A DNA stretch of 30,295 bases from a virus: positions 1 to 30,295 of IMG/VR virus record IMGVR_UViG_3300042862_000023. One strand, given 5' to 3'. Below the pieces are notes generated by a model, which did not search any database, was not told the DNA's origin, and saw only the letters and a program-made list of their open reading frames with translations. Of this stretch, positions 11,657 through 22,490 are shown one piece after another. The position numbers and the translations under genes were made by a program. Position 1 is the first letter of the stretch; every line of letters begins with the position of its first letter.

Positions 11657-13894
11657 TTAAGAATTGCAACTATTACATCCACAATCACTTGATTGATTAC
11701 ACCCACAGCTATTTGCTGGAGTACAATTAAAATCAGGATTATATAATGCTGCTATATCTATTAATTCTTTTTTAACTAACCAGTATTCATCATCTTCTGG
11801 GCAACAGTTTGCAATCCCATATCTTAAGTTAAGAACATTTCTATAGAGTATTTGAGATGCTCTACAAGAAATATTTTCATACTTTTCAATACTACATGCT
11901 GGTGTGTTATATCCTGGTTTAATACTTCTTTTAGGATATATAGTTGCAGGACATACTCCATTATTGCAATCACCAAAATAAGTATAATAACTTTGACAAG
12001 GATTAGTAACTACTGTAGTAGGTACTAAATTTGGTATACTTGAATACGGATGCCAAACTCCTATTGGACATTTTGCATCTGATGGTGGTAAATAATAATC
12101 AGGAATTCCTAAACTATTTGTTTTAACCCATTGAGTACCATTATAAAAAATACTTGCTACACCAACTACTTCCCATGAAGGTCTATAGTTAATTAGTGTA
12201 CCAGTAGAAAATAAAATGTTATACGTTGTTGTTGTTCCTACTGTAGTTGCTATAATAAGACAATTGCAATCTACAGGTTCTAACCATTTTATTAAACATA
12301 TTTTAGGACTAGTTTCTCCAGGAGCTACCGTAATAGATTGTACATCACCATAACAATCAATATAGTCATATGTATAGTTTATTGCATTATCATTTCTAAC
12401 ATTAGAACAAATACATGGTGCAGTAGTTATACACTCTAAACATGTTACAAAAGAATCTGTTACCGTAACAATACTTGGATTAACTGGAATTATAATTAAT
12501 TCAACTTCATAACAACCATCACAATTTGCTAGCTTTACAATCTTACCTATGTAGGCACCTAAGTCACTAGAAGTATCTATTGTTTCTTCTGTACTACATT
12601 CAGTTAATCTATAGTAGGGTCTTTCACATGTTGCACAATCTCTAAAAGATGTAATAATAGTTATTACTTGTATAGAAGGCGGGGCATAATTAATTAATTC
12701 TACTATGAAACATCCACAGTCTGTTAATAATGTTTCACCAACATATTGTGATAAATCTTGGTATGTATATTGAGTAGTATATACTCCAGTACAACTAGTT
12801 AATTTATAAGCCACTACAGTTTTACAAATTGCACAAGTAGCTGAACTAAAAGTTACACTAACATCAATAGCACACTCACAATCATCCTCAGTAGTTTCTA
12901 CTCTCCAACATTCTGTAAATCCTGCAATTTTAATTACATCATCATTAATAGCATGTGGTAATAAAACAAATGATGTACTATATTGAATATTTAATGGATC
13001 TTCACAATCAGTAAGTTTATAACATTTTTGTGGACATACATTATCTATACATGGTCCTAATGGTGTTATAATATAATTTGTATTAATATTACCTACTATA
13101 GGAAATGTTTTAGAACATATGGTTAACCATGGTAATGTTCCTGCTGGAGTAAACTCAACTAACTGATCTGACTCATCAACATACTTAACATAAGTAATTC
13201 CTTGAGCTCCTTCAATATAATAACATACAGTTTCACAATCACATGTTATTTCTGGATTAATTGTAACACTAACAGCACCTGAACAATCTGTACTTTCTAA
13301 TGTTGTTACGTATACACATCCTGTATAGCTACCAGAGGTAATATTAATAAATTGATCTAAATAACCTCCTAAGTCAATTGTTGTACTTACAAAAGGTTCT
13401 GTTACTCCATCACATGGAATTAAAACATAACAATCACAAGCAACAGAAGGAAATGACCATGAATAAAATCCATCACTTGCAATACATATTCCATCAACTA
13501 AAGTATATGATATAGTTTCTGAAGATTCAGGACATTCATTACAATATGTAAATGAATTACAATCAGGACATAGATCTGAATCTAAACATGTAAAACCTAC
13601 AACATATAAATCACCTAATAATCCGACCTGTGTAGTTGGAGGCATATTAAACATAGTTAAAACTACAGATGTTAAAGCAATAGGTGTTTCAACATAATAA
13701 CATCTACCAGGTACTAAAAACGCACCATAAGAATCTACATAAGGAGCCGGTCCAGTATATATATAAGTTCCAGGTTCATAAACCAATGGGCCTAAAAAAC
13801 CAGACATACTAAAAGATACTACATCATTTGAATCACAACATGATGTAAACTTATAATATCTTATTAACGGACTATCAACCGGATCTACTTTCAT
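11657..13894 (-). CDS. Large cysteine-rich repeat protein, probable virion appendage
   Basis: A 745-aa protein with 57 cysteines. The centre is built of ~62-66-residue modules, clearest at about 291-357, 362-424 and 427-488, with older copies at about 155-224 and 224-290. Each module runs Y-x-L-T-x-C, a beta segment, often 'DL..Y[IV]G', then C-x-C or C-x-x-C and a closing C-x-x-C. The N-terminal 112 residues look like a diverged module. The C-terminus (about 640-745) is different: it has YPKRSIKPGYNTPACS, a helical segment near 676-690 and a final run of CGC/CNSC pairs. I know this module type from large, uncharacterised phage virion proteins, but no function is established to my knowledge. 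It lies between two probable fibre genes and two small Cys-rich genes. No signal peptide or membrane helix is seen, so it probably folds in the cytoplasm and is stabilised by metal or, after release, by disulfides. Confidence 0.6.
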   Translation of the reverse strand: MKVDPVDSPLIRYYKFTSCCDSNDVVSFSMSGFLGPLVYEPGTYIYTGPAPYVDSYGAFLVPGRCYYVETPIALTSVVLTMFNMPPTTQVGLLGDLYVVGFTCLDSDLCPDCNSFTYCNECPESSETISYTLVDGICIASDGFYSWSFPSVACDCYVLIPCDGVTEPFVSTTIDLGGYLDQFINITSGSYTGCVYVTTLESTDCSGAVSVTINPEITCDCETVCYYIEGAQGITYVKYVDESDQLVEFTPAGTLPWLTICSKTFPIVGNINTNYIITPLGPCIDNVCPQKCYKLTDCEDPLNIQYSTSFVLLPHAINDDVIKIAGFTECWRVETTEDDCECAIDVSVTFSSATCAICKTVVAYKLTSCTGVYTTQYTYQDLSQYVGETLLTDCGCFIVELINYAPPSIQVITIITSFRDCATCERPYYRLTECSTEETIDTSSDLGAYIGKIVKLANCDGCYEVELIIIPVNPSIVTVTDSFVTCLECITTAPCICSNVRNDNAINYTYDYIDCYGDVQSITVAPGETSPKICLIKWLEPVDCNCLIIATTVGTTTTYNILFSTGTLINYRPSWEVVGVASIFYNGTQWVKTNSLGIPDYYLPPSDAKCPIGVWHPYSSIPNLVPTTVVTNPCQSYYTYFGDCNNGVCPATIYPKRSIKPGYNTPACSIEKYENISCRASQILYRNVLNLRYGIANCCPEDDEYWLVKKELIDIAALYNPDFNCTPANSCGCNQSSDCGCNSCNS
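12431..13432 (-). repeat. Coding repeats of ~64 residues in the 745-aa protein
   Basis: At least three clear modules and two weaker ones are arranged in tandem. Each starts with Y[KRV]L[TI]xC and ends in C-x-x-C or C-x-C. Protein-level similarity is clear, but DNA identity is low, so the copies are old and kept by selection on cysteine and aromatic positions. Confidence 0.65.
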
Positions 13895-13903
13895 CTTCTT
13901 TAA

Positions 13904-14104
13904 TTATTTATTGTATCTATCTGGACCCCAAGTAGTTGCTTTAATAACACGCGGTTCAGTAACTGATTTTGCACCTATTTTTGCAGCTTTGATTGAAGCC
14001 TCTAATGTATTAATGCATGATGAACATGCCGTTGCTCCGTTTGAAGCTGCTCTTTTTTGACATCCGCAGGACATATTAGCCCCGCAATTTGCACACTTTG
14101 CCAT
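13904..14104 (-). CDS. Small zinc-ribbon-like Cys-rich protein
   Basis: A 66-aa protein with six cysteines as C4-x-x-C7, C13-x-C15 and C27-x-x-C30, within a basic and Ser/Ala-rich context. This spacing suggests one or two zinc-binding knuckles. The start MAKCANCG resembles the MAKKCMSCGG start of the 206-aa basic protein at 17962-18582 and the KCAKCGC start of the 246-aa fibre gene, so a short Cys tag recurs in this region. It is tightly packed between structural genes, suggesting a minor virion or assembly component. I do not recognise a named family. Confidence 0.55.
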   Translation of the reverse strand: MAKCANCGANMSCGCQKRAASNGATACSSCINTLEASIKAAKIGAKSVTEPRVIKATTWGPDRYNK

Positions 14105-16494: not shown

Positions 16495-17013
16495 TTATTT
16501 CAAGAAAAGTAACTTATACTTAGTGCTGTTAATTGAATCTTTTACAAGATCCAAATTGTTGACAATTTCTGAATAAGGCATCATACCTTGTAATTTATTT
16601 ACCATGTTGTACATGTCTCTTAAGTAACCTATAGCATCTGACACAGTATCTAGAGTTCTAATAGGTGAATCTTTATATGATAAAAGTTTTTCACATACTC
16701 CTTGATATCCTTCTATTAGTGTATCTGCTTGATCATGAAGCCCTTCATAAAAATTTCCAAGAGCTTTATGTGCTGCATAAGAACCATCTCCTTTTACTTT
16801 TAAATGAAGTCTATGAAAACTGATTGCTGCATTCATCATCTCTGTTGCACATGCTGCAGTCATTGTATCCAATGAACTTCCACCAACTCCTGTATCTGGA
16901 GTAGGTTCAGCTTTAGCAGGTTCATCTTTAGGTTGTGTAACAATAGGTTGGGGTCTACTAAGTGTCTTAGTAGGTTCTGGATTTCTTTTTAGTAATCTTG
17001 CTTTAGTTTCCAT
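16495..17013 (-). CDS. Dps/ferritin-like protein in the virion module
   Basis: A 172-aa protein. Residues 1-48 are a disordered basic/Pro-rich leader, and residues 49-172 form a helical domain. The segment around 67-104 (SFHRLHLKVKGDGSYAAH, then ALGNFYEGLHDQADTLIEGY) aligns without gaps to helices A-B of Dps. Against E. coli Dps ferroxidase ligands H51, H63, D67, D78 and E82, this protein has H70, H82, G86, D97 and E101: four of five at identical spacing. The 'KGxxS[FY]' turn also matches. Phage proteins of this kind exist as an uncharacterised family (I believe labelled DUF5856). A Dps-like role in binding iron or DNA, perhaps protecting packaged DNA, is inference; it could instead be a purely structural four-helix protein. 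It lies two bases after the ring/adaptor gene. Confidence 0.68.
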   Translation of the reverse strand: METKARLLKRNPEPTKTLSRPQPIVTQPKDEPAKAEPTPDTGVGGSSLDTMTAACATEMMNAAISFHRLHLKVKGDGSYAAHKALGNFYEGLHDQADTLIEGYQGVCEKLLSYKDSPIRTLDTVSDAIGYLRDMYNMVNKLQGMMPYSEIVNNLDLVKDSINSTKYKLLFLK

Positions 17014-17015
17014 AT

Positions 17016-17714
17016 TTAGTTATTTCTTTCAGCACCTTCTGTACCTCTAGCATATTGATTGCTTGATTCAATATCACCAGCTAGTATAGCAACTGCTTCA
17101 TCTATTATTACTTCTATAATATCATCTTTAAATTCACACTCTACATTAACTGGAGACTGTAAACTTGTATAAGGGTCAACACATCCTTGAATCTGAATTT
17201 TAATTGGCTGTCTGTAATATACAAAATCAGCTGAACCAACTTCAAAATCATTGTTAGTATATACATGAACCTGATTACCTATTAATGTTGCAAATGTTTC
17301 AGCCCATTCAAAACTAGGTTTCTTATTAGCATCTCTTAATAACTGGTTAAGGTTACCTTCTTCAGCAAGATAAACTGTCATTCTTCTTTTATCACAACAA
17401 TCCTTTTTAGCAAATACATCTACACGTTTCCATTGTAAATATTCACCTGGTAAGGCTGCAGTAGAATAATCTCCTTTATCTGTAAAAGATAAAGTTTGAG
17501 TAGACAATAAAACTTGTAAGTCATCTTTTCTTCTAGTGGATTGCTCATCACCTTCTTTAACAAGGTTGATACCATGAAGTTGTCTTCTAGTCCATTCAAC
17601 CTGTGCTTTATTAAAGCTCTCAACAATTTGCCAGCACTCTATGTTATCATAGTCATTAGAATCCAATTTATTGAGACGTTGTTTTATTTTTATTGTAATG
17701 GTACTATTTAACAT
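17016..17714 (-). CDS. Portal-proximal ring / head-tail adaptor protein (P22 gp4-like position)
   Basis: A 232-aa protein. The N-terminal helices (TIKIKQRLNKLDSNDYDN, then VESFNKAQVEWTRRQLHG, then EGDEQSTRRKDDLQVLL) have the pattern I recognise in crAss-like head-tail connector proteins, often called P22 gp4-like or ring protein. A beta-rich middle (QTLSFTDKGDYSTAALPGEY, then VYLAEEGNLNQLL) and an acidic C-terminal helix with VIIDEAVAILAG follow. The protein would dock on the portal after packaging and seal the head. It lies two bases from both neighbours, between the basic cassette and the Dps-like gene, so it is co-transcribed with both. Confidence 0.7.
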   Translation of the reverse strand: MLNSTITIKIKQRLNKLDSNDYDNIECWQIVESFNKAQVEWTRRQLHGINLVKEGDEQSTRRKDDLQVLLSTQTLSFTDKGDYSTAALPGEYLQWKRVDVFAKKDCCDKRRMTVYLAEEGNLNQLLRDANKKPSFEWAETFATLIGNQVHVYTNNDFEVGSADFVYYRQPIKIQIQGCVDPYTSLQSPVNVECEFKDDIIEVIIDEAVAILAGDIESSNQYARGTEGAERNN

Positions 17715-17716
17715 GA

Positions 17717-17959
17717 TTATTTATTTTTAGCCATTTTTTTCAAAGTGATAGCAAGAGCTTTTCTCTTAGGTGTGCATGTTTTTTTAGTAAGTGGAGTGCA
17801 ATAACCTTTGTGTGCAGGATTAATAGCTTTTTGAATCCATTTCTTATCACCAGTAGAACCACCTTTTTTCATTGATGGTCTTTCTTTAACACATGATCCA
17901 CTTGCAGATCTAACCTTTGTATTTTTACAAGAAGTTTTTACAGCTCTAGTTGTTGCCAT
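17717..17959 (-). CDS. Small basic conserved protein (Cys/Lys-rich)
   Basis: An 80-aa protein with Lys plus Arg near 30 percent. It has a SMKKGGSTG motif (29-37) and a tail with KKWIQKAINPAHKGYCTP (39-56) and KKTCTPKRKALAITLKKM (59-76). I recognise this C-terminal pattern from small proteins recurring next to structural genes in many phages, but know no function. Four cysteines (11, 23, 54, 62) could bind a metal. The RKAL-x-x-LKK ending resembles that of the 169-aa protein at 18595-19104. A nucleic-acid-binding or head-content role is inferred from charge and position only. Confidence 0.6.
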   Translation of the reverse strand: MATTRAVKTSCKNTKVRSASGSCVKERPSMKKGGSTGDKKWIQKAINPAHKGYCTPLTKKTCTPKRKALAITLKKMAKNK

Positions 17960-17961
17960 GA

Positions 17962-18582
17962 CTATTTCTTTTTAACAGATTTTTTTGCACCAGCAATTCT
18001 ATCTGCAGCAGTAGCTCTTGGATTTTTATCTACACCAGCTTTAACTGATAACATACCAAAGTTAGTAGCTCCACCTTTTTGCATTTTTTTAACTATTCCA
18101 CCAGTTTTAAAACTTAATGTTTCTTTTTTCATAGATTTTAATAAAGGTTTAACATCTTTTCTTTTTACAGTACTTTTGTTATAACCCGCATTTCCTGTAT
18201 AAATTTGATCATAATTTGGTTTACCTTTTGAGTAACCTGTTGTATCAATACTTAAAACATCTGCTGGACCATTTTTTTTATTTTTTGTAGAATATACAGT
18301 TCCTTTATTTGTTGCAACATATGAAGCTGAAGAACCATCTTTTTTATTTACAATTACTTGATCTTTAGCATATTTATTAGGACCAACTTTTTTAACAGTT
18401 TTCCCATCTTGAGCTTTAGGTAAAGCTTTTTTAACAGCACCACCTTTTTTAGCAGTAGGTTGGAATTGACTAGATGTTCCAATGTTTTCTTGAGGAATAC
18501 CGTAGATACCCATCTTAACATTACTTCCACCTTTTTGCATTTTTTTCATTGCACCTCCGCAACTCATACATTTTTTAGCCAT
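17962..18582 (-). CDS. Basic KMQKGG-motif protein with N-terminal Cys pair
   Basis: A 206-aa protein ending in TAG just before the next ATG. It opens MAKKCMSCGG and has two exact KKMQKGG motifs (13-19 and 165-171), another KKGG (45-48) and a conserved-looking C-terminus NFGMLSVKAGVDKNPRAT followed by ADRIAGAKK. The middle is a Lys-rich, Tyr/Asn-rich low-hydrophobicity region. The motifs divide the protein into segments of comparable size, consistent with flexible linkers or processing sites. I recognise this as a recurring type in gut and marine phages near the capsid genes, without assigned function. A packaged internal protein is a reasonable inference. Confidence 0.55.
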   Translation of the reverse strand: MAKKCMSCGGAMKKMQKGGSNVKMGIYGIPQENIGTSSQFQPTAKKGGAVKKALPKAQDGKTVKKVGPNKYAKDQVIVNKKDGSSASYVATNKGTVYSTKNKKNGPADVLSIDTTGYSKGKPNYDQIYTGNAGYNKSTVKRKDVKPLLKSMKKETLSFKTGGIVKKMQKGGATNFGMLSVKAGVDKNPRATAADRIAGAKKSVKKK

Positions 18583-18594
18583 GATATATTTATT

Positions 18595-19104
18595 TTAACA
18601 GTTCCACTTTTTTAATGAAAGAGCCTTTCTAGTAGGTCTTCCTTTTTCATCCTTCATAGGACCTTTTACTCCAGACATTCTAGCACAAAAAGATTTTCTT
18701 CTTTTAGCATCTTTACTATCTGGATCTAATTTAGATGGTTTAGTTGTAACAGCCATCTTAAGTTTGCTACCAGGATTTTCTCTTCTATAAGAAGCAACAC
18801 CTTTAGCATTTAATCCACCTGTAGGATTTTTTCCTTCTTTTTTAGTCCATGCAGGAGTAGAACCTCCGGTTTTCATTTTAGGTGCTTTATCATTTTCCTT
18901 ATGCCATTTTTTTTCAGCAGAAACACCTTGCTTTACAGTCTTAGCATTAGCAGTTCTAGTTAAACTAATAGTATCATAAGTTCCCTTATTTTTACTAGTA
19001 TGGTTGACCATAATGTCACCAACTTTACCTTCACCTCTTTTAGTAGTCTTTTTATAAACTACATGTTTTTCTTTGCCGGTATTAAATTTAACTTTGTCTG
19101 CCAT
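18595..19104 (-). CDS. Basic two-module protein with DUF6321-like C-terminus
   Basis: A 169-aa protein. The first module (about 5-75) includes KHVVYKKTTKRGEGKVGDIM and NHTSKNKGTYDTISLT. A KMKTGGST linker (76-83) follows. The second module (84-169) contains PAWTKKEGKNPTGGLNAKG, then KRRKSFCARMSGVKGPMKDE, then GRPTRKALSLKKWNC. The second module matches a small phage-associated family that I believe is labelled DUF6321. Both modules are strongly basic. The GG linker separates two recognisable units, supporting the idea that this motif marks module boundaries. Function is unknown; DNA binding inside the head is a guess from charge. Confidence 0.6.
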   Translation of the reverse strand: MADKVKFNTGKEKHVVYKKTTKRGEGKVGDIMVNHTSKNKGTYDTISLTRTANAKTVKQGVSAEKKWHKENDKAPKMKTGGSTPAWTKKEGKNPTGGLNAKGVASYRRENPGSKLKMAVTTKPSKLDPDSKDAKRRKSFCARMSGVKGPMKDEKGRPTRKALSLKKWNC

Positions 19105-19106
19105 GA

Positions 19107-19259
19107 CTATTTCTTTTTTGAAGTTGCTTTAATCTTCTTCTCTTGCTTAAGCATTGCTGTTGTAGGTTTCTTTCCAGAACCTTTATTAGCACGGATGTTA
19201 TCCCAGAGTCCTCTCTGGGAATAACTACCATCCTTTCTTTTTAGCATTTGCTTTGCCAT
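19107..19259 (-). CDS. 50-aa GLWDNI-motif basic microprotein
   Basis: An ATG at 19259 opens a 50-codon frame ending in TAG at 19107-19109, exactly filling the gap between the 163-aa and 169-aa genes (one base after one stop, two before the next ATG). The product runs MAKQMLKRKDGSYSQRGLWD, then NIRANKGSGKKPTTAMLKQE, then KKIKATSKKK. The GLWDNI-[RH]-A-K-x-x-x-GSG-[KE]-KP motif recurs, as I recall, in short stretches of many phage and some large eukaryotic DNA virus proteins, where it is unexplained. Charge is extremely positive (about one third Lys/Arg). Its exact packing between genes supports a real gene despite its size. Confidence 0.72.
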   Translation of the reverse strand: MAKQMLKRKDGSYSQRGLWDNIRANKGSGKKPTTAMLKQEKKIKATSKKK

Positions 19260-19260
19260 T

Positions 19261-19752
19261 TTAGCAAGATTTCTTTTTCATGCTACCACCCATTTTCATT
19301 TTTGGTGCAGCAGCTTTTGGAGCTTTAGAAACTCCACCTACTTTACCTGTAGCTTTTTTAGCTGCAGTTCTTGGTTCAGCAGATTTAGCAGGTCTACCTT
19401 TAGCAACTTTAGATGCAGTAACTTTTGCATTAGAATTTACCATTCCACCTGTTTGCATTTTTGCAGGAAAACCATTATTATCAAAACCAGGCATACTTTT
19501 TCTTGTCTGTCTTCCCACATCTTTTTTAGCTTTTTCAGCTTTTTCATAGGCGTTTTGTGAGTTTTCAGATTGACCTTTTACACCAGCAAGCCTATAACCT
19601 GCATCTTTATAATACTTATATTTATCCACATAATAATTTGTACTATCTGTAGTAGGTTTATTATTTGGAGGTGTAAATTTAGGTTCTGCTGTTTTTTTAG
19701 CAGTAGATTTAGGTTTTACTCCACCACCTTTTTGCATTTTTTTTGTTGCCAT
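19261..19752 (-). CDS. Lys/Ala-rich protein with three K-M-x-x-GG motifs
   Basis: A 163-aa protein with motifs KMQKGG (5-10), KMQTGG (98-103) and KMKMGG (151-156), near the N-terminus, middle and C-terminus. The region 36-90 is Tyr-rich and has a plausible helix (YVDKYKYYKDAGYRLAGVKG). The region 105-150 is a Lys/Ala/Pro-rich tail similar in composition to H1-type histone tails. The start follows an A-rich leader (AAAACAAAATAAA). It is the first gene of the basic cassette, 12 bases after the 338-aa gene. A role in condensing packaged DNA is inferred from composition. Confidence 0.58.
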   Translation of the reverse strand: MATKKMQKGGGVKPKSTAKKTAEPKFTPPNNKPTTDSTNYYVDKYKYYKDAGYRLAGVKGQSENSQNAYEKAEKAKKDVGRQTRKSMPGFDNNGFPAKMQTGGMVNSNAKVTASKVAKGRPAKSAEPRTAAKKATGKVGGVSKAPKAAAPKMKMGGSMKKKSC

Positions 19753-19764
19753 TTTATTTTGTTT

Positions 19765-20781
19765 TTAAGAGTTCCAATACTTTTCACAAGCAGCATTCAA
19801 GTCTTTTAAAATGTCCTCATTTAAAGGGTTCTTCAAGTACTCTAATACATCAGACACATTTCTTCCTAGCATTGAACTAGTTTTAACATGATAGATGTAT
19901 CCATCTGCCTTAGTTATAATATACTTAAAAAATACGGAATCTCTAACAATTGATTTAATTTTTAGTGTTTCCATATCTAAGTTTACAGCATCAATAAATG
20001 ATTTAGCTGCTCTTTCTTTGTTGGTTTCTCCACCAAATCCATTAATGTAGTTATCCATATTCTCATAGATAACATCATTAGGAGTTGACTTTTTATATTG
20101 TGTACTGTTAATATCTACAACTTTTGCAATGTAGAATAACTTAGTACTATTTTTGTCAAATAATTTCTGAAGTTCAGACAATGCTTTATTACGCATTTTC
20201 TTGTATTCAGTTCTTGCCATCACTGTCTCTTCTGTTTTATCTAAGTAAAACTTAGGAGCTACAGCTCTAGATCTTGCATCATCAAAACTTTTTGCTATAA
20301 TAGCAAAACCTCCTGCTTCAATTGCATGCAATTTAATTCTATCATATGGATCTTTTGGATCCAAGAATAATGGATCATTACCACATGCAATACTAATTCT
20401 ATTCCAGAAATCCGCATTATCAGGTTTAAGTAACTTTACCAAATTCCAAAACTGTGGATCTTCCACATCAATTACATTAGCTGCAAGTTCTTTTTCTAAT
20501 TCACTTATTGCAGATCTAATTTCTTTTACTCTTGCAGCTTTATCATCTGCATTAAGCAATCTAATTTCTGGAGCAAATTCATTAAGTCCAGTTAAGTATC
20601 TTACGACACCATTATTTTCTAAGCATGCTAATTGTTCATGATGTGTTACACCATCAAAAAGAGACATACCATAATCTTCTAAACCCATATTAGAAGCATT
20701 TGCATCAAAGAATGGTCTAACTGCAATAGCAGTTTGTTTTACTGATCCCTTCCCTGTTTCTACCATTGTGAAATTTTCCAT
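19765..20781 (-). CDS. Conserved head-associated protein following the MCP
   Basis: A 338-aa soluble, largely helical protein with no cysteine-rich region. Notable segments are VKQTAIAVRPFFDANASNMG near the N-terminus, a long helix AARVKEIRSAISELEKELAA (about 81-100), DPQFWNLVKLLKPDNADFWN, and YKKMRNKALSELQKLFDKN. I do not recognise an enzyme motif. Position directly after the MCP and its terminator suggests a head auxiliary, cargo or assembly protein. It starts behind a long A/C-rich leader without a Shine-Dalgarno site. Function unassigned. Confidence 0.55.
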   Translation of the reverse strand: MENFTMVETGKGSVKQTAIAVRPFFDANASNMGLEDYGMSLFDGVTHHEQLACLENNGVVRYLTGLNEFAPEIRLLNADDKAARVKEIRSAISELEKELAANVIDVEDPQFWNLVKLLKPDNADFWNRISIACGNDPLFLDPKDPYDRIKLHAIEAGGFAIIAKSFDDARSRAVAPKFYLDKTEETVMARTEYKKMRNKALSELQKLFDKNSTKLFYIAKVVDINSTQYKKSTPNDVIYENMDNYINGFGGETNKERAAKSFIDAVNLDMETLKIKSIVRDSVFFKYIITKADGYIYHVKTSSMLGRNVSDVLEYLKNPLNEDILKDLNAACEKYWNS

Positions 20782-20873: not shown

Positions 20874-22490
20874 TTAGAATGATCCACCAGTAATTGGATT
20901 TCTCATAACAATTTTCAAAACTTTAGTTGGATCTTTAACCCAAATAGCTGGCATTGTTTGAGACATCATTACACGGTATCCATTGAATTGTCCAGAAGAC
21001 TGGAATCCTTGGGTACGTCCCATGTAATCCATTGTTCCATTTTGGTACCACCATTTCAATTGATTATCCCAAGATAATTTCAACAAGAAGATGTTGTCAT
21101 TAGTATTATCTGTGATATCAAAAATAATGTATGAGTAAGAAGATAACGGGAAACCATCAATGATTGGGTTCTCAATATCATTAGTATGAACATTGTCAAA
21201 TGCTGGGTTCAATACAAACTTAACATTTGCCAAGAAAGGAATTACATAAGATGTGTAAGCAAATCCAAAATTCAAGTCCATACCTTTACCAGTGATTGCA
21301 CCAATGTCAGCAGCCTGAATTAATAAACCTGAAGATACAGCTTCTTTTTTGATAGCCTCATTAACCATACGCATACCACCCATACCAGTTTGTACAACCA
21401 ATGAGCGTTTTGGATCTGGTCCTTGGAACTCAACTTTTCCGTTGAAGAAGTTGTAGATCTCAGAACGGAACAAGTCCAATGTAAAGTTATTTTTATTGTA
21501 GATTCTTTTGAAAGAGTTATCCAACTGTTTCCAAAGACCCACAGATAAACGCATGTCATCTGGACCATCTTGTTTGATACGTCCACCTTGACCCCACATT
21601 AAGTAAGTTTCAATATCCGTTGCTACTTTAGATAAGTGAGCAGCTTCCATTCCAGTAAGGAAAGTTCTAGATAAGTCACCATTATCAAATGCTTTCTTAA
21701 CTTTATCTTTACCCATTACTTTAACCATATCTTCCAAAGAAGTAACAGATGGATCATTAGTAGCACCAAAGTTTCTCCAGATCTCAGTTACAGGAACTGT
21801 ACCATCTGCATTCATTCCACCTTTGATCATCAAGTCTGCACGAGAAGATACTGAATAGTGAACGTGAGCTTCAGCTCCACCTACATAGTTGTAGAATTCA
21901 CGGAAACCAGTTCTTGTAGTAATGTCAGAGAATCTCTCACCATACTCACCTCTTGCAGAACCTTTACGGAATACTTTAGTACCGTTAGCTAAGTATTTGC
22001 TATCTAAGTATTTAAAGTTGTCATTGTTTACTAACTGTACAGTATAGATATATCCATCACCAATTGGTAAGATATCCTCTGCTGTAATATACATCTCAAC
22101 ACCGTTATATTTGTCATAAGTGATGATATCACCATGTCCAAACTCACGTCTGCTTAATTTGATACGGAATGTAGTCCCATCAATACCTTTGAAATCATTT
22201 GATGGCTCAATGTCTTCAATTACATATGGAAGATCTGTAGATACAGGAGTCTGCCATTTGTACTCTCCACGAGCATTATCAACCATGATTACATTTTTAC
22301 CACCAAATGATGACATTTGATAAAGTGGCATTTCAACTTTTTGAGCCATAGCCCATAAATCAACTGGGCCTAAGTCCATAGGCTCAGCATCTTTCAGCAT
22401 GTTTACCAAGTGGTATGAATCCACATGGGAACTTGCATTGTAAGCGGTATCTCTGAGGAATATACCATTGTTCATTACTGGAGTTGCCAT
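20874..22490 (-). CDS. Major capsid protein (HK97-fold, crAss-like)
   Basis: A 538-aa protein with no cysteine at all. The N-terminus (NNGIFLRDTAYNASSHVD, then EPMDLGPVDLWAMAQKV) and the following YQMSSFGGKNVIMVDNARG, EYKWQTPVSTDLPYVIED and REFGHGDIITYDK match the pattern I know from major capsid proteins of crAss-like and related phages. Length suits a roughly 500-aa HK97-fold subunit. The position is diagnostic: portal, scaffold candidate, MCP, terminator. The leader before the ATG is A-rich (AACAAATAAAAACAAATAAATA in two parts) without a Shine-Dalgarno site. The fold is inferred from family, not seen directly. Confidence 0.87.
   Translation of the reverse strand: MATPVMNNGIFLRDTAYNASSHVDSYHLVNMLKDAEPMDLGPVDLWAMAQKVEMPLYQMSSFGGKNVIMVDNARGEYKWQTPVSTDLPYVIEDIEPSNDFKGIDGTTFRIKLSRREFGHGDIITYDKYNGVEMYITAEDILPIGDGYIYTVQLVNNDNFKYLDSKYLANGTKVFRKGSARGEYGERFSDITTRTGFREFYNYVGGAEAHVHYSVSSRADLMIKGGMNADGTVPVTEIWRNFGATNDPSVTSLEDMVKVMGKDKVKKAFDNGDLSRTFLTGMEAAHLSKVATDIETYLMWGQGGRIKQDGPDDMRLSVGLWKQLDNSFKRIYNKNNFTLDLFRSEIYNFFNGKVEFQGPDPKRSLVVQTGMGGMRMVNEAIKKEAVSSGLLIQAADIGAITGKGMDLNFGFAYTSYVIPFLANVKFVLNPAFDNVHTNDIENPIIDGFPLSSYSYIIFDITDNTNDNIFLLKLSWDNQLKWWYQNGTMDYMGRTQGFQSSGQFNGYRVMMSQTMPAIWVKDPTKVLKIVMRNPITGGSF

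Follow-up and report, generated by a model that had tools for sequence, protein, structure and literature searches.

Small basic proteins with a shared K-[M/Y/F]-x-x-G-G joint form a variable cassette near the head genes of a crAss-like phage and its relatives

Adenovirus and African swine fever virus have basic core proteins whose precursors are cut at GG-X sites. In T-even phages, the internal proteins are described as highly diverse, small head proteins that contact DNA and share only a short conserved sequence; one of them, IPI* of T4, is injected and inhibits a restriction enzyme (PMC3012670). For the crAss-like phage phiCrAss001, gp45, gp46, gp47, gp49 and gp50 have been proposed as virion cargo (PMC10172136). 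The subject of this report is a cassette of five adjacent genes in the IMG/VR virus record IMGVR_UViG_3300042862_000023, a sequence of 30,295 bases that was analysed whole and is called the window below; the genes code for small basic proteins, in which the motif KMxxGG and its variants recur. As judged from sequence comparison with related loci, the cassette proteins combine basic modules (among them DUF6321, DUF5872, WIQ and an EF-hand-like loop) in mosaic fashion, and K-[M/Y/F]-x-x-G-G with its close variants marks the joints where modules come and go. Our preferred reading, to which we give an even prospect, is that the cassette is a hypervariable, head-associated set resembling the T4 internal proteins and built by module exchange; its virion location, its DNA binding and the biochemical role of the motif are what we infer.

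The five genes and their motif copies are listed here, with the basis of each assignment (aa, amino acids; ORF, open reading frame):
19261..19752, minus strand: gene a, 163 aa, basic, three copies of KMxxGG, no Pfam or PHROG match (ORF call, profile searches)
19107..19259, minus strand: gene b, 50 aa, basic, no motif, no Pfam or PHROG match (ORF call, profile searches)
18595..19104, minus strand: gene c, 169 aa, N-terminal module, KMKTGG joint and C-terminal DUF6321 (ORF call, Pfam, alignment)
18604..18834, minus strand: DUF6321 (PF19846) of gene c (Pfam, above the curated cut-off)
17962..18582, minus strand: gene d, 206 aa, two copies of KMQKGG, middle part resembling the module inserted in locus L070 (ORF call, comparison)
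17717..17959, minus strand: gene e, 80 aa, N-terminal part, MKKGG joint and WIQ-type domain (ORF call, module pattern)
19723..19740, minus strand: KMQKGG, residues 5-10 of gene a (motif scan)
19444..19461, minus strand: KMQTGG, residues 98-103 of gene a (motif scan)
19285..19302, minus strand: KMKMGG, residues 151-156 of gene a (motif scan)
18862..18879, minus strand: KMKTGG, residues 76-81 of gene c, the joint preceding DUF6321 (motif scan, alignment)
18526..18543, minus strand: KMQKGG, residues 14-19 of gene d (motif scan)
18070..18087, minus strand: KMQKGG, residues 166-171 of gene d, preceding the GMLSVKAG module (motif scan, joint count)
17858..17872, minus strand: MKKGG, residues 30-34 of gene e, preceding the WIQ domain (motif scan, joint count)

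All five ORFs were found on the minus strand where the original prediction had placed them, tightly packed with gaps of 1-12 bases, 2 bases from a ring-type gene on one side and 12 from a 338-aa gene on the other; their products have a pI of 10.2-10.7 and 22-32% K+R. The expectation that four of the five carry one to three copies of the motif also held, with three in a, one in c, two in d, MKKGG in e and none in b. KM[QK]xGG is seen six times in the five proteins, against a mean of 0.012 and a maximum of 2 in 20,000 residue shuffles; among the other 19 proteins called in the window, none contains KMxxGG and one (3-1565) has a lone M[KQ]xGG. The DUF6321 of gene c is a full-length member of its family (1.4e-25, 90.1 bits with a cut-off of 28.5). 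The histone-like proteins first suggested find no backing, since none of the five matches a histone, HU or IHF family in Pfam or PHROGs up to E 0.1. The possibility that the ORFs are mis-called was rejected, several modules being conserved as protein in other phages.

Relatives were collected with a capsid scan, which gave 80 loci (numbered with the prefix L); 42 hold both flanks and, with the window, make 43 sequences, near-duplicates (L002 and the window, L012 and L013, and others) being kept in the counts. Genes were called with ATG starts and at least 30 codons, with a few of them truncated or missed, as exemplified by 30-aa DUF6321 pieces in L024, L045, L047 and L053. The cassette was found at its predicted place between head and ring genes, in a slot defined by the following neighbours:
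20874..22490, minus strand: major capsid protein (MCP; Crass_capsid; Pfam profile match)
19765..20781, minus strand: 338-aa gene of unknown function, following the MCP gene, upstream flank (ORF call; position in relatives)
17016..17714, minus strand: 232-aa ring-type protein, downstream flank (resemblance to the csAssE-Sib 'ring protein')

In the 43 cassettes, 1470-5001 bp separate the 338-aa gene from the ring gene, with 5-11 called genes in each cassette and 327 proteins in total; a number of five thus describes the window and is not fixed, as some relatives have no cassette genes at all. The cassette proteins have a median net charge of +0.19 per residue (94% are above +0.1), and the median outside is -0.02. 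Clustering with the motif masked gave 105 families, a figure that depends on the clustering, of which 58 are singletons and 43 have at least one member with KMxxGG; gene b belongs to the KRKDGSYSQRGLWDNIRANKGSGKKP family, found in 13 of the 43 cassettes, and related cassettes also contain DUF5872 (PF19197) proteins (4.2e-13). Every one of the 43 has at least one K[MYF]xxGG. The view that shared composition, motif and position make these genes one system is supported by these data.

That the motif lies between recognisable modules had been proposed from the window, and across the relatives it tends to do so. Thirteen module start patterns were written by hand; of the 12 that were run, four gave nothing and eight have fused forms, and for these eight the distinct contexts with any GG pair at most 12 residues before the module were counted. 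For five modules, a GG precedes the module in all 43 distinct fused contexts, with about 13 expected: DUF6321 (11/11, 2.2 expected), WIQ (11/11, 2.5), the EF-hand-like module (7/7, 3.1), GMLSV (8/8, 3.3) and FAALA (6/6, 1.9). The GG joints listed are of the KMxxGG type or variant forms of it, for example MKKGG and AKKGG. The DUF6321 alignment locates the joint precisely: free-standing forms mostly begin with MAK[T/S][P/A]AW, and forms with an N-terminal partner have the GG joint, mostly KMxxGGS, immediately before [P/A]AW. Gene c corresponds in L022 to two distinct genes with a slight overlap (13437-13721 and 13684-13959), one for each half. An AlphaFold model of gene c, weak with a mean pLDDT (predicted local distance difference test score) of 57, has DUF6321 helices at about 74-84 and the motif at the end of a stretch below 50.

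Variation is also seen within the modules themselves. The C-terminal part of DUF6321 (gene c, 18604-18834, and relatives) exists in at least three interchangeable versions, namely GPMKDEKGRPTRKAL, KKKLTSxKTANDPNSRINK and a QMAxFP form; the first two have cyanophage counterparts, which suggests exchange within the domain. The EF-hand or dockerin-like loop F[P/K]DLxxDGxxTxxDxLxGRG, which has no Pfam match, occurs in L022:14546-15220, L115:14327-14707 and L085:6690-6956, and it stands directly before the WIQ domain in L115 and in gp44 of the pelagiphage HTVC027P.

L070 and L071 represent a natural pair, in which a module was gained or lost at the joint with the capsid protein unchanged: their MCPs are identical and the DNA of their flanks shows 82-90% identity. 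In L071 the DUF6321 gene comprises an N-module, KMAKGG and DUF6321, and in L070 an N-module, KMQKGG, 132 further residues, KMKTGG and DUF6321; the difference is 132 residues placed exactly at the motif, with 90% and 89% identity in the parts common to both. Protein d has a stretch in its middle that is similar to the inserted module (32% over 91 residues, E 4e-6 in a single comparison). The insertion stops at the motif, and the blastn pieces have 11 bases in common across its GG end, as would be expected if the motif spread solely by seeding recombination between modules and had no protein function. This explanation is very improbable in view of the codons: synonymous codons vary freely, KMAKGG being encoded by 10 different 18-mers and KMKTGG by 9, glycine codons in the motif (GGT 246, GGA 86, GGC 27, GGG 13) are used similarly to those elsewhere (2151, 1063, 179 and 109), and Y or F, encoded by unrelated codons, is common at the M position. 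A cause of GGNGG at the DNA level alone, such as a Shine-Dalgarno sequence, was rejected after the codon-use analysis. By its codon pattern, the motif is conserved as protein sequence.

The motif is frequent in the cassettes and nearly confined to them. In the 327 cassette proteins, KMxxGG is seen 126 times and KM[QK]xGG 84 times, compared with 3.0 and 0.7 in shuffles; outside the cassettes, 578 ORFs with 195,518 residues contain two copies of KMxxGG, both in one L029 protein. At the DNA level, 30 of the 33 matches in ten large records (964,680 bases) fall in cassettes, which span 28,523 bases or 3% of the sequence, and a reversed control pattern gave no match; the three matches outside represent two small basic proteins. 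The record that holds L077 has a second mini-cassette far from the MCP gene (L092:2818-4194), with a KMKMGG protein near a DUF6321 gene; this gene (L092:3922-4194) is the only DUF6321 match of the record, and the main cassette there has none.

A motif almost confined to the cassette and enriched near N-termini could be a head-targeting tag, docking the proteins to the scaffold or to the inner capsid face during assembly; T4 internal proteins are reported to share only such a sequence (PMC3012670). We regard this as quite improbable. KMxxGG is present in only 84 of the 327 cassette proteins (111 with the wider K[MYFLIV]xxGG), and copies lie also in the interior, at joints. A docking tag, one of the roles first suggested for the motif, is unlikely as something required by every member, because most of the DUF6321 copies counted stand alone without it (20 standalone proteins, not deduplicated, vs 11 distinct fused contexts).

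The consensus around 699 GG pairs has K at -4, M or Y at -3, K or Q at -2 and K or T at -1, followed by S/A/T and then V/T. K-[M/Y]-[K/Q]-[K/T]-GG-[S/A/T] is more specific than a plain linker requires, and 58 of the 186 copies of K[MYF]xxGG lie within the first 20 residues (31%, with 13% expected), many cassette proteins having no motif. Together with the position of GG at joints and the separate genes for the halves of gene c in L022, these features would suit a protease site, where cleavage after GG in head maturation frees the modules and N-terminal copies release short propeptides. Such processing is nonetheless unlikely: C39, C48 and C5 peptidases were each found at E 0.1 in none of the ten large records, which are perhaps incomplete, with a strong control for C39, one silent everywhere for C48, and one for C5 that rang in two controls below the cut-off. 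Moreover, the 423-aa gene between portal and MCP is modelled as all-helical and scaffold-like rather than as a protease (mean pLDDT 62). On balance, the joint position would favour a linker or a cleavage site, and the specific consensus with the N-terminal copies would favour a cleavage site or a tag.

Close relatives differ in whether they have the cassette. A second, alignment-based capsid scan, which was aimed at remote relatives and yielded mostly the same clade, gave 58 new locus ids, 36 with both flanks and some being second fetches of known contigs. In the 36 further loci, at 78-93% MCP identity, the slot ranges from 7 to 4241 bp, and cassette-less relatives have 7-57 bp between the 338-aa gene and the ring gene. 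A tree of 75 MCP rows, from which ten second fetches, L001, L002 and rows that lack any of three marker genes or whose MCP is short or broken were left out, comprises 57 large cassettes, 5 small ones and 13 scored absent (slot <100 bp); the absent state needs at least 5 changes, 4 of them forced by starred branches, with a shuffled mean of 12.2. None of 11 records in which the cassette is absent (9) or small (2), several of them fragments, has DUF6321, which is found in all nine large cassette-bearing records given (of ten, L024 being left out) as well as in L131; L112, whose cassette is made of other modules, has a sub-threshold DUF6321 match only. The DNA form of KMxxGG occurs in one of the 11 records (L098, two matches), and the cassettes of L131 and L112 have MKKGG or YKKGG and no exact KMxxGG. 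This presence and absence among close relatives marks the cassette as an accessory system, gained, shrunk or missing, and not as a required part of the head.

Some cassettes contain recombination endonuclease VII-like genes (PF02945; 1.3e-14 and 7.3e-25), for example L022:13961-14533 and family F13, represented by L067 and present in 5 of the 43; such enzymes could drive the reshuffling. Another module (RKKSYYARHNAQ...ARYWSHKVKW), found in L121:13521-13826 and L112:10259-10546, matches phrog_7595 (2.6e-33) and has a weak Pfam resemblance to DUF6321 (E 0.038), of which it may be an analogue. Solved structures gave no convincing match for gene c or for this possible analogue (best E 0.41 and 0.6). 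Two weak candidates were not used, phrog_220 'minor head protein and DNA pilot' for the possible analogue (E 0.0026) and Fusellovirus VP2 for WIQ (E 0.026 and 0.053, below the cut-off).

Several of the modules are shared with unrelated marine phages. With gene c, tblastn found 543 phage records, mostly of cyanophages and pelagiphages; for protein d, neither a direct homologue nor a motif-rich relative was found in named phages by tblastn, which masks low-complexity sequence. Thirteen phage contexts with DUF6321 were picked by hand, and in ten of them head or packaging genes (scaffold, capsid, terminase) are adjacent or within about 3 kb: HTVC119P, P-SCSP2, HTVC027P, MEP402, CRP-7 (a DUF6321 look-alike by eye), S-E7, S-CREM2, KBS-P-1A, ACG-2014f and Sf-CH8. 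In HTVC119P and P-SCSP2 the small genes sit between scaffold and capsid. HTVC027P has a run of small genes with DUF6321 and three further modules, namely WIQ (78.6% identical), a PSAYA type and a DUF5872-like one (E 5e-4, below the cut-off), and a 529-aa protein of S-E7 unites, by eye, ACYxKVKSRY and CWKGY modules with DUF6321. In S-E7, the label 'structural protein, T4 GC0119' was set aside as evidence, T4-GC119 being called hypothetical in Sullivan 2010 (PMC3037559). In Vibrio 5P1a a putative terminase lies about 2.7 kb away across many small genes and was scored unclear; the stretches viewed of HTVC203P and MaMV-CH02 contain no head or packaging gene. Homologues without a GG motif are common, and most of those examined are not scattered away from head and packaging genes.

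S-CREM2 gp137 (108049-109521), with DUF6321 at its C-terminus, was detected in virions purified in CsCl (caesium chloride) with 4 unique peptides and 4.1% coverage (PMC10665884, Table 3); it is the only experimental virion link found, a weak one, as it concerns one relative at low coverage. With the ten contexts near head or packaging genes, it makes the packaging of the cassette proteins in the head, as originally proposed, plausible on indirect grounds. No paper on DUF6321 was found in the open-licence literature, where one paper with DUF5872 was found, on a giant virus, in a passage that only lists the domain; among the matches listed there, no described crAss-like system of small basic proteins or Gly-Gly sites was found.

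The same data bear on whether the proteins are in the virion at all. Being dispensable and hypervariable, they could be late DNA- or RNA-binding or counter-defence proteins acting in the producing cell, encoded in a slot that tolerates insertions; the similar pair at a second site in the L077 genome and the endonuclease VII-like genes of some cassettes fit this explanation. We consider it unlikely, as several phages have relatives of the modules next to genes for scaffold, capsid or terminase, and virions were found to contain one DUF6321 protein (PMC10665884).

The slot hosts fast-exchanging, small lysine-rich proteins; under the preferred reading of a head-associated set, they would go into the head together with the DNA, which they would neutralise or organise, and be delivered at infection as hypervariable early helpers, most likely against host defences by analogy with the T4 internal proteins. 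Selection would keep the motif as a joint, in the form of an exposed, unfolded linker that connects modules and may in addition serve for recognition or processing. An extension of this reading, distinctly unlikely in our estimation, is that KMxxGG is a plug-in joint, combining module swaps by recombination with recognition (GG cleavage or head binding), so that every module is packageable and separable; if true, these phages would have a modular system for loading cargo, comparable to the T4 internal proteins but polyprotein-like, and renewed faster than the capsid.

Several points weigh against the head-associated reading. The cassette is dispensable, as the cassette-less sisters show, and DNA binding is predicted from charge alone. 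The joint test scores any GG and not the full motif, the counts are weaker for the modules F6 (5/6), IYGIP (4/5) and F2 (3/11), and the 58 copies of K[MYF]xxGG in the first 20 residues have no folded module before them. Among the last six phage contexts opened, three have no clear placement of DUF6321 beside head genes. S-CREM2 gp137 has 490 aa and is not basic overall (net charge -0.04 per residue), its 4.1% coverage need not include DUF6321, and its authors warn that regulatory proteins may co-purify (PMC10665884); for cassette-bearing phages, no virion analysis was found. Finally, the cargo proposed for phiCrAss001, as described in PMC10172136, has 60-277 kDa, a size unlike that of the cassette proteins (50-206 aa).

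The system connects orphan families (DUF6321, DUF5872 and unnamed modules) of common marine and freshwater phages into a single, testable one. If its proteins are packaged, aquatic crAss-like phages own a rapidly renewed set of injected helpers, and the joint may be usable for loading chosen proteins into a phage head.

The window phage is crAss-like: its MCP is a Crassvirales capsid by its match to Crass_capsid of Pfam (2.9e-31, 108.9 bits with a cut-off of 27), and PHROGs assign a portal and a terminase large subunit in the window. Its host is likely one of the Bacteroidota, because MCP relatives occur in a Chitinophagaceae metagenome-assembled genome (83%) and in a Patescibacteria bin (65%). 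The ring-type gene (17016-17714) resembles the 'ring protein' of csAssE-Sib closely enough to be assigned to this class (31.9% over 40% of the length, E 2e-6). In the more distant phi4:1, Lbo-JY46 and csAssE-Sib, the cassette is absent and a single gene, likened to the 338-aa gene by position alone, separates MCP from the ring-type gene and abuts the latter; phi4:1 gp062, in the ring position, is annotated as structural from MS/MS (tandem mass spectrometry), and the preceding gene has no such annotation.

Two further genes of the window were noticed. The gene after the ring gene (16495-17013) has matches to DUF5856 (6.4e-15) and to a PHROG with the name starvation-inducible transcriptional regulator (1.2e-18), which makes it an unexpected neighbour for structural genes. 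At about 13904-14104 (as L002:16460-16660), a 66-aa ORF rich in CxxC (CANCGANMSCGCQKR) resembles a small zinc-binding protein and has counterparts in L022, L039 and L077.

Compared with known systems, the cassette shares GG sites with the basic core proteins of adenovirus and African swine fever virus, but it differs from them in GG spacing and in having no homology, and no matching protease was detected in the ten large records (C48 control silent, C5 weak). It shares DUF6321 and DUF5872 with marine viruses, in which relatives are found near head genes of cyanophages and pelagiphages; unlike the cassette, T4-like cyanophages have modules joined in one large protein (S-E7), and beyond single GG motifs the KMxxGG joint system was not seen in the HTVC027P and S-E7 records. 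Like the T4 internal proteins, the cassette proteins are small, basic, hypervariable and encoded with head genes, but none of the five has a PHROG or Pfam match to a known internal protein. The shared element also differs, since in the cassette most copies lie where modules meet and many members have none; and the T4 proteins are packaged, cleaved and injected, whereas the cassette is known from its genes. Thus, what is unusual here is a shared joint, in an otherwise known kind of set, the hypervariable head-accessory proteins of phages.

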